From: Verrucomicrobiota bacterium
GTDB lineage: Bacteria > Verrucomicrobiota > Verrucomicrobiia > Chthoniobacterales > Chthoniobacteraceae
NCBI GenBank assembly: GCA_009885995.1
Contig: VFJQ01000023.1
Location: 62,001 to 126,000 of the forward strand
Length of the DNA stretch: 64,000 nucleotides
Reading direction: 5' to 3'
Part shown: one piece after another, positions 53,479-56,829 of the stretch
How the letters are laid out: the number at the start of each line of letters is the position of its first letter
Numbering within the stretch: position 1 is the stretch's first letter
The notes under the pieces: model-generated
Told to the model about the DNA's origin: nothing
Database searches by the model: none
The model's input: only the letters and a program-made list of their open reading frames with translations
Position numbers and translations under genes: made by a program

Positions 53479-56400
53479 ATGCGCCGCCTTCTGATCGCCC
53501 TCTGTCTCGCCCTGCCTGCCGTCTCCTTCGCCCAGAAGAAGAACGACCAACTCCCGGAGCGCTCGGAGGCGGACATCCTGAAGACCGTCACCCTGCCCGA
53601 AGGCTACGAGGCGACCGTCTTCGGCAAGCCGCCGCAGGGTGGCTACCCGGTGCAGGTCAGCGCGGCCATCGATGGGACGATCTTCGTCGCCATCGACGAA
53701 AACGGCTCGCTCGGGCGCGATCGGAACACGGCGGAGCAGAAGCCCGGTAAGGTCGTCCGCATGCGCGACACCGACGGCGATGGGCACGCGGATGAGTTCA
53801 TCACCTTCTGCGACGTCGAGAGCCCGCGCGGCGTGATCTGGGACGGCGTGCCAGTAGTCCAAAGTCCAAAGTCCAAGACTGCCGAAGGCAGGTCGAGGGG
53901 GAAACATGGCGACAATCCAAAGTCCTCGCAGTCGAACGCGCCCACGCAGGGGAAGACTTTGGACTTCGGACCCTTGGACCTTGGACCCTACCGCCTCCCC
54001 GGCACGCTCTACGTCATGCACCCGCCGAACCTCACCGCTTACACCGACACCGACGGCGACGGGAAATCCGACAAGCAGGAGGACATCCTCACCGGGCTCG
54101 GCTTCGGGCTCGATTTCCGCGGCGCGGATCACACCACGAATGGCTGCCGGCTCGGCATCGATGGCTTCATCTACATCGCGGTCGGCGACTACGGCTTCAC
54201 GAAAGCGGTCGCCAAGGACGGCACCACGCTCACCAACCGCGGCGGCGGCATCGTGCGCATCCGGCCCGATGGCACCGGCTTCGAGATCGTCTCGCGCGGC
54301 CAGCGCAACATCTACGACGTGGCCGTCTCGCCCACGCTCGACCTCTTCACCCGCGACAACACCAACGACGGCGGCGGCTGGAACGTGCGCCTGAGCTTCG
54401 TCCCGCCCGGCGCGCACATGGGCTACCCGTATTTGTTCAAAAACTTCCCCGAAGACCGGCTCGACGCGCTGGCCGATCTCGGCGGCGGCAGCCCGTGCGG
54501 CGCGCTCTGGCTCGATGAACCGGGGCTGCCGAAGGGGCTCTTCACCGTCGAGTGGGGCGCGGGCGGCATCTTCTACCACGACGATCTCGTGCCCGACGGC
54601 GCCGGGTGGAAGCTGGCCGGTGTAGCGTCCGCTGTCCCAGCGGACAGTGCGCTGGGACAGCGGACGCTACAGCCCGACGGCAGGAAGACCCCGACGGTGA
54701 AGCCGAACCAATGGATCAAAATGGTCCGCCCGACCGACATGGACGTGGACGCCAGCGGCCGCCTCTACATCACGAGCTGGGAAGGCGCGACGTTCAACTA
54801 CAACGGGCCCTTCGCGGGGTATGTGCTGCGGGTGGTGAAGAAGGGGGCGGGGAAGGTGGCTGTGCTGGAGATTGCGAAGGCGAAGCCGGCGGAACTTGTG
54901 CAGCTCATCAATTCGCCAAGCGGCGTCGTTCGTCAGGCGACGCAGCGAGAATTGATTCGTCGCGGTGCGAACGAAGACGTGCTGATCGGCTTGATGAAGA
55001 TCGCGCACTCGAAAGCGCCGTTGGAAATTCGCGTGGCGGCCTTGTATTCGGCGCTGCAATCGATCCCCGCATCGAACAAGCCGCTCGAAATGTTTTTTCC
55101 GCAGATGCTCGGGCCGATCTTCGACGCGGGCGACGCGCGTGAGTTCGGGCTGCGGTTGGCGGGTGACTTTCCGAAGCGCCTCGAAGGATTTGGTTTCAGC
55201 CCCGAAATTCTCGCTGACGCGAGCCCCCGCGCCCGCGCCGCCGCGATCACCGCGCTGCGCCGGCTGCACAAGACCGACGCCGCGCCTTCCATCCTCCCGC
55301 TCGTCGCCGATCCCGACCCGGTCGTCGCGCACCTTGCCGTGCGGGCGCTCAGCGAGTTGAAGGCGGTGCAGCCTTGCCTCGCTGCGCTCGATTCCACCGA
55401 CGCCAAGGTGCAGCCCGGCGCCTTGCGCGCGCTCTACGGCATCTCCGATCCCGCCGTCGTGGACGGTCTCCTTTCCCGCCTTGGCGGCGCGAAAGGCGAG
55501 CTGCGCCGCGGCATCCTCAACGCGCTCTGCCGCCTCGCCAACCAGGACGCGCCTTACACCGACCCGAGCGTGTGGTGGGGCACGCGGCCCGATACGAGCG
55601 GCCCGGTTTACCAGCCCATCGCGTGGAGCGAGACCGACAAGATCACCGCCGCGCTCAAGACCGCGCTCGAGAAGTCCGACGCCGACGATGCGAAGTGGCT
55701 CGTGCAGCGCATGTATGCCACGAAGGTGAACTTCCCCGACCTCGTGGAACTCATGCTCGCCAAGGCCGGCAGCGACACGCCCGCCAAGCTCGAAGCCATC
55801 GAGGGCATGATCCGCGCCGACAATTCGCTCCCCGCCGAGGGCGTCGCCGCGCTGCAAAGCATCGCCACCGATGACCGGCAAGCCATCGAGCTGCGCGTGC
55901 GCGCGCTGCGGGTCTTCCAGCGCTGCGCGGAGAATGGCACCGTCTTCCCCGGCGCCGTCGCCGCCTTTGCCCCGCTCGCCGGACACGACATCGGCGACGC
56001 GAAGCTCACCGCCGCGTTCGAGGACTTCACCCGCGGCGCGCATAACGGCAAATGGGTCGGCGATTACGCGAAACATCTCACCGGCAAGGACGCCGCCACG
56101 CGCCAGCTCGCCGCGACCGTGCTCGTGAATCTGTCCACCAGCCGCGTCGGCAAGGAGCAGGATCGCGACGCCGCGAAGAAGGCCGTGGAGAAAGCCTTCG
56201 CGCAGCCCGAGCCCGCCGCCGCGCTGCTCGCCGCGATCGCCCGCACCGGCGCGAAGCCTTACGCCGAGCAGGTGAAGGCGAAGCTGAACGATCCCAACAA
56301 CGCCGTGGCCGAAGCCGCTCTCTTCGCCTTCCAAAAACTCGGCGGCGGCGACAAGCCGGCGAAGATGATCGGCGAGATGAAATACGAGGAGGTCCTCGCC

Positions 56401-56829
56401 GCCGTGCAGCGCGGTGGCGACGTGAAAGCGGGCAGCGAGATGTTCCTCAAAGCCGCCTGCATCGCCTGCCACACCATCAACGCCGACGAGCCGCCGAAAG
56501 GCCCGATCCTCAGCGCCGTCGCGAAGATCTACGACCGCGCCGCGCTGACCGAGAGCATCCTCAAGCCGAGCGCGAAGATCGCGCAGGGCTTTGAGAGCAC
56601 GTGGATCAAGACGAAGAAAGGTGAGCAGGTGGAAGGCTTCGTGACGCGCGAAGGCGGCGACAGCGTGGACATCCGCAACATCGCCGGCCAGACCGTGCTC
56701 GTGGAGAAAGCCGACATCGCCGAGCGAGGCCACCGCGACATCTCGATCATGCCCGAGGGCCTGCTCAACGCCTTCACGACCGCCGACATCGCGAACCTGC
56801 TCGCGTGGATGGAGTCGCTGAAGAAGTGA
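53479..56829 (+). CDS. PVC-type CxxCH heme-binding protein (membrane-bound dehydrogenase propeller + HEAT-like + cytochrome c) with two in-frame palindromic insertions
   Basis: Signal peptide; DTDGDGHADEF, TDTDGDGKSDKQEDILTGLGFGLDF; heme motif CIACH; C-terminal MPEGLLNAFTTADIANLLAWMESLKK. Confidence 0.88.
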   Translation: MRRLLIALCLALPAVSFAQKKNDQLPERSEADILKTVTLPEGYEATVFGKPPQGGYPVQVSAAIDGTIFVAIDENGSLGRDRNTAEQKPGKVVRMRDTDGDGHADEFITFCDVESPRGVIWDGVPVVQSPKSKTAEGRSRGKHGDNPKSSQSNAPTQGKTLDFGPLDLGPYRLPGTLYVMHPPNLTAYTDTDGDGKSDKQEDILTGLGFGLDFRGADHTTNGCRLGIDGFIYIAVGDYGFTKAVAKDGTTLTNRGGGIVRIRPDGTGFEIVSRGQRNIYDVAVSPTLDLFTRDNTNDGGGWNVRLSFVPPGAHMGYPYLFKNFPEDRLDALADLGGGSPCGALWLDEPGLPKGLFTVEWGAGGIFYHDDLVPDGAGWKLAGVASAVPADSALGQRTLQPDGRKTPTVKPNQWIKMVRPTDMDVDASGRLYITSWEGATFNYNGPFAGYVLRVVKKGAGKVAVLEIAKAKPAELVQLINSPSGVVRQATQRELIRRGANEDVLIGLMKIAHSKAPLEIRVAALYSALQSIPASNKPLEMFFPQMLGPIFDAGDAREFGLRLAGDFPKRLEGFGFSPEILADASPRARAAAITALRRLHKTDAAPSILPLVADPDPVVAHLAVRALSELKAVQPCLAALDSTDAKVQPGALRALYGISDPAVVDGLLSRLGGAKGELRRGILNALCRLANQDAPYTDPSVWWGTRPDTSGPVYQPIAWSETDKITAALKTALEKSDADDAKWLVQRMYATKVNFPDLVELMLAKAGSDTPAKLEAIEGMIRADNSLPAEGVAALQSIATDDRQAIELRVRALRVFQRCAENGTVFPGAVAAFAPLAGHDIGDAKLTAAFEDFTRGAHNGKWVGDYAKHLTGKDAATRQLAATVLVNLSTSRVGKEQDRDAAKKAVEKAFAQPEPAAALLAAIARTGAKPYAEQVKAKLNDPNNAVAEAALFAFQKLGGGDKPAKMIGEMKYEEVLAAVQRGGDVKAGSEMFLKAACIACHTINADEPPKGPILSAVAKIYDRAALTESILKPSAKIAQGFESTWIKTKKGEQVEGFVTREGGDSVDIRNIAGQTVLVEKADIAERGHRDISIMPEGLLNAFTTADIANLLAWMESLKK
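53857..53986. repeat. In-frame palindrome built from 7-mers (GTCCAAA family)
   Basis: GTCCAAAGTCCAAAGTCCAAGAC ... GACTTTGGACTTCGGACCCTTGGACCTTGGAC; encodes VQSPKSKTAEG...GKTLDFGPLDLGPY. Confidence 0.88.
54621..54671. repeat. In-frame perfect palindrome of exactly 51 bp, GTAGCG/CCGCTGTCCCAGCGG family
   Basis: TGTAGCGTCCGCTGTCCCAGCG-gacagtg-CGCTGGGACAGCGGACGCTACA, 22-bp perfect arms, 7-nt loop, 17 codons. Confidence 0.96.

Follow-up and report, generated by a model that had tools for sequence, protein, structure and literature searches.

The 51-bp palindrome at 54621-54671 of the window, the 64,000-nucleotide stretch of an uncultured verrucomicrobial genome analysed here, is very probably (we put it at about 0.9) a REPIN: two GTAG-tagged REPs in inverted orientation, presumably moved as single-stranded DNA into a host gene by the RAYT transposase encoded on contig C74. 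The evidence for this reading comes from the anatomy of the palindrome, the protein that carries it, the dispersed family to which its units belong, and a RAYT gene that lies among members of the same family.

The palindrome and its host gene

The palindrome reads TGTAGCGTCCGCTGTCCCAGCG-gacagtg-CGCTGGGACAGCGGACGCTACA, and the coordinates, the perfect 22-bp arms and the 7-nt loop given in the earlier note are all exact on re-reading the sequence. A repeat search of the window extends the arms to 25 nt, with one mismatch, around a 1-nt centre. Such a hairpin has a chance expectation of about 4e-8 in 64 kb, and against shuffled sequences it folds with z = -9.4 as RNA (-57.2 kcal/mol) and z = -12.5 as DNA. 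It resolves into two inverse copies of a 24-nt unit, GTAGCGTCCGCTGTCCCAGCGGAC, set tail-to-tail with 1 bp between them, and this unit, a hairpin footed by GTAG, has the anatomy of a REP. A GTAG 5' of a short hairpin together with dispersal across the genome characterizes GTAG-type REPs, and two inverted REPs that make one hairpin characterize REPINs; both are found here. REPINs are usually extragenic and this one is intragenic, but we do not treat location as defining because intragenic GTAG REPs have been published (PMC3733652). The features concerned are as follows.

53479..56829, + strand: host gene, PVC-type heme-binding CxxCH protein of 1116 aa (DUF7133, HEAT, cytochrome c; TIGR02603)
54621..54671, no strand: compact REPIN of family A, an inverted REP pair carrying GTAG at one end and CTAC at the opposite end; contributes 17 codons in frame, VASAVPADSALGQRTLQ following the flanking Gly
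54622..54645, + strand: REP unit 1, GTAGCGTCCGCTGTCCCAGCGGAC, GTAG foot and hairpin, 0 mismatches to the family core
54647..54670, - strand: REP unit 2, GTAGCGTCCGCTGTCCCAGCGCAC, one mismatch in its own stem

Gene calls here rest on codon signal, not annotation. The host ORF carries cytochrome c, DUF7133 and HEAT domains, in agreement with the cytochrome gene claimed earlier, and matches TIGR02603 above the cutoff and TIGR02604 in its N-terminal part, below the cutoff. The insert of 51 bp amounts, as had been claimed, to exactly 17 codons and begins on the third base of a Gly codon; the 18-letter peptide first assigned to it takes in that flanking Gly. With the 51 bp removed, the gene is still one open frame, reading ...GWKLAGPDGRKTP..., and the palindrome itself is open in two of its three frames. 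All 28 of the 28 homologues aligned across the site (relatives with about 32-62% identity) are without the 17 residues, which, together with similar in-frame copies in other genes, bears out the proposal of an insertion. These homologues differ in the length of the segment that joins the conserved 'GA.Y/F' and 'RPTD' motifs, and by alignment the site therefore looks like a loop of the host protein. A single-sequence structure prediction for 443 residues of the protein returned a mean pLDDT of 33.

The peptide of the palindrome written in non-palindromic codons, which would point to an origin at the protein level, was sought among the host-gene homologues and not found. The suggestion that the insertion is young is not borne out: any inverted pair of like REPs will have perfect arms by its nature, and the exact core occurs only once in the assembly (a draft in 181 contigs, 91% complete). 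No target-site duplication is apparent at the palindrome.

Other dispersed repeats also lie in frame nearby. The same host gene has a second insert at 53850..53997 (+), about aa 124-172, that homologues are without; it is made of AGTCCAAAG-type inverted repeats flanking a TGCCGAAGGCAGGTCGAGG.GGAAACATGGCGACA element, of which four more copies occur in about 490 kb of the source genome examined. A DHPS (folP-like) ORF at 52127-53170 of the window likewise contains two in-frame stretches, of the ATCAGTAATCAGT type (about 52376-52475) and the GGAGCAGGGAGCA type (about 52913-53039).

REP family A and its candidate transposase

A pattern search at low mismatch finds about 45 REPs of the palindrome's family, here family A, in the source genome: 41 places at no more than one mismatch and 46 at no more than two, one of the latter being closer to a second family, B. 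The reversed pattern, used as a control, gave almost no matches. Family-A units are found as single copies and as direct arrays too, with the densest cluster at C74:38161-44138; single-REP matches such as that at L034:11619, in an aldehyde dehydrogenase-like ORF, we took as probable chance. Among 24 distinct copies typed from the pattern matches, three stem positions vary, nearly always as compensated pairs, so that 96% of cells are paired and 28 are double-changed. Stem covariation is 0.407 compared with 0.109 after shuffling, a value reached in 0 of 500 shuffles and lost when the partner is slid. Compensatory change between copies thus maintains the stem, as in GTAG-type REPs, and the hairpin itself is what family A conserves. 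The earlier idea of selection for the hairpin is supported for the REP family as a whole; the simplest view is that selection acts on it as a RAYT substrate and not as an mRNA hairpin with an effect on the host gene.

The source genome has eight Y1_Tnp matches, one of which, at C74:41880-42083, falls within the densest family-A cluster. This ORF scores 98 bits against the profile for REP-associated tyrosine transposases (NF047646, cutoff 80), and E. coli TnpAREP, 4ER8, is the one structure in the PDB that it matches. It is flanked by family-A REPs, the arrangement of a REPtron, as is likewise the case in three other genomes; in two Chthoniobacterales MAGs (MGR_bin232 and MGR_bin418) and in Verrucomicrobia 'isolate 9', homologues with about 51-63% identity carry family-A REPs inside the gene or next to it. 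The C74 RAYT gene moreover holds an in-frame REPIN between its HUH and Tyr motifs, which are 88 residues apart compared with 72 in the closest homologues. A 5' GTAG, a 3' CTAC and an in-frame REP between HuH and Tyr, the sequence features of double-foot REPs and of RAYT subclass 2.4, are thus all present.

REPs between HUH and Tyr occur in two further cases. One, the RAYT gene on C85 (L032 4907-5730; also L014 1168-1890), is surrounded by a different REP family, of the TGTAGCCGCGTCGCTCTGCGACGCG type, and has its own, different REPs inside the gene, with a HUH-Tyr distance of 104 residues. The other is L220.

Neither a clear target-site duplication nor a fixed flank motif was found, and a bias in flanking bases and CT/CA dinucleotides, tried as a cleavage signature, gave weak signals only. 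A scan of GTDB genomes for the exact family-A pattern returned 99 stretches, nearly all in records titled Chthoniobacterales, Spartobacteria, Udaeobacter or Verrucomicrobia and none in records titled Opitutus. In a sample of 59 genomes of relatives, matches were found in the source genome and in two others of the order, these two having one or two matching places apiece, and in this sample family A is therefore confined to the source genome within its taxonomic family.

The earlier note had also joined the palindrome to the intergenic copies at 44034 and 46207 through a common core. GTAG and CCGCTGTCC..CAGCGG are indeed held in common, but the copies are not of the same family: they belong to a related but distinct REP family B (GGTAGGGACSGCTGTCCYCAGCSGTCCGCG), and each of them is again joined by an inverted partner, at 44111 and 46285 respectively.

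44033..44112, no strand: family-B REPIN, outside coding frame
46206..46286, no strand: family-B REPIN, outside coding frame

Family B (GGTAGGG...) is the larger of the two, with 159 matches genome-wide at up to 3 mismatches, and the draft genome yielded no RAYT for it.

In-frame copies and competing explanations

When coding signal is tested on both flanks, 8 of the 18 family-A clusters of two or more REPs are intragenic and in frame. Their hosts are the window gene, the RAYT gene, an aldo/keto reductase, an ABC transporter ATPase, a kinase with an FGE-sulfatase domain (L028) and three paralogous Ser/Thr kinases with a REPIN at one site (L021 4408-4460, L022 221-273 and L069 4811-4863). Another kinase, on L017, has tandem REPs in frame, an array outside the strict criteria of this count. 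The REPIN in the aldo/keto reductase gene is missing from 19 homologues, and no target-site duplication is apparent there. For family B the corresponding count is 4 of 21, not significantly different from family A (p = 0.16). Compact REPINs lie in genes in 10 of 21 cases and long-spacer ones in 1 of 14 (p = 0.023, or 0.047 with the three paralogues collapsed), an enrichment that is only suggestive, the two groups having been set by hand after the data were seen.

If the palindrome is a REPIN, then it would be a non-autonomous element mobilised as single-stranded DNA by the cognate RAYT/TnpAREP on C74, which, by analogy with the TnpAREP experiments summarised in PMC8266576, would recognise the GTAG foot and the hairpin; we infer RAYT-catalysed mobility on this basis. 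The REPIN would have entered a length-variable segment of the PVC-type heme-binding gene, which kept its frame because the insert is open in two of three frames and adds, on balance, a multiple of three bases, and the allele, longer by 17 residues, would have survived. Intragenic insertions would, more generally, be retained when the frame survives and the new residues land in a tolerant segment. Most likely the insertion was tolerated in a variable loop, its 17 residues having a neutral effect on the host protein.

The very stable RNA hairpin would also fit a domesticated regulatory element, kept for an effect on the mRNA such as ribosome pausing, RNA stability or attenuation, and the three paralogous kinases offer some encouragement, since their same-site REPINs have stems that are mostly paired, with positions changed on both sides although the encoded residues differ. 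Yet the element is also present in unrelated genes and in intergenic positions, the host gene's homologues manage without it, and the covariation belongs to the whole dispersed family, so we regard such a role as improbable. Selection may instead have favoured the residues for their use to the protein, for example as a linker, and the VASAV... frame is indeed common to the window gene, the RAYT gene, the aldo/keto reductase and two kinases; the CSVRS... frame is used in other genes, however, the DNA palindrome dictates the encoded residues, and homologues are without the segment, which leaves this explanation with very little probability.

A short, palindromic, dispersed element could also bring to mind an ordinary MITE of a DDE-transposase insertion sequence, a reading that we consider highly improbable given that the GTAG-foot hairpin units are also present alone or in direct arrays, that a RAYT lies in their densest cluster and that no target-site duplication is apparent. 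The REPIN reading itself admits a stronger form, in which the REPIN of this lineage is adapted to gene interiors and is evolving as a coding-compatible mobile element. Its basis is that nearly spacer-free copies with two open frames are commoner in genes than long-spacer copies are, and that stems stay paired while residues change in the three kinase paralogues; we think this unlikely, if less so than the regulatory role above.

Relation to known REP systems

All of these features lie within published descriptions (PMC3733652, PMC6006769). Intragenic GTAG REPs are known above all from Opitutus terrae, also of the Verrucomicrobia, where dimers have units 1-2 bp apart, and the inserts add 20-30 aa (Di Nocera et al. 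2013, PMC3733652). The REP dimers of O. terrae and other species resemble the palindrome in being GTAG-tagged, tail-to-tail with a 1-2 bp spacer, and in frame in many proteins; here the species and host genes are different and 17-18 aa are encoded. Rickettsia palindromic elements likewise occupy in-frame positions in genes whose protein products are probably functional, but RPE-4 and RPE-6 of R. conorii are of the CGTC class and not associated with transposase genes (PMC3733652), in contrast to the GTAG class with a RAYT found here. REPINs of Pseudomonas fluorescens SBW25 share the RAYT association and the inverted REP doublet as one hairpin; the work on these dealt with extragenic space, and their two REPs commonly stand 71 or 110 bp apart (Bertels and Rainey 2011, PMC3116915), whereas the pair here is nearly fused and often intragenic.

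The closest likeness on the transposase side is to TnpAREP/RAYT subclass 2.4 (RAYT group 4), for which in-frame REPs inside the RAYT gene between HuH and Tyr are a feature (PMC6006769), and which shares with family A the REP ends GTAG...CTAC; the likeness lies in these sequence features. Verrucomicrobia go unmentioned in the text of the paper. Its authors note that 'double-foot' REPs could derive from an inverted dimer that lost its centre by deletion (Quentin et al. 2018, PMC6006769).

As far as our searches show, the species, REP family A and its RAYT are new instances. They add a RAYT/REP pair from uncultured Chthoniobacterales whose element repeatedly enters genes and leaves them unbroken, one host gene of the REPIN being its own transposase. 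Comparing sister genomes makes it possible to test both how the RAYT chooses its targets and what short in-frame insertions of peptide cost.
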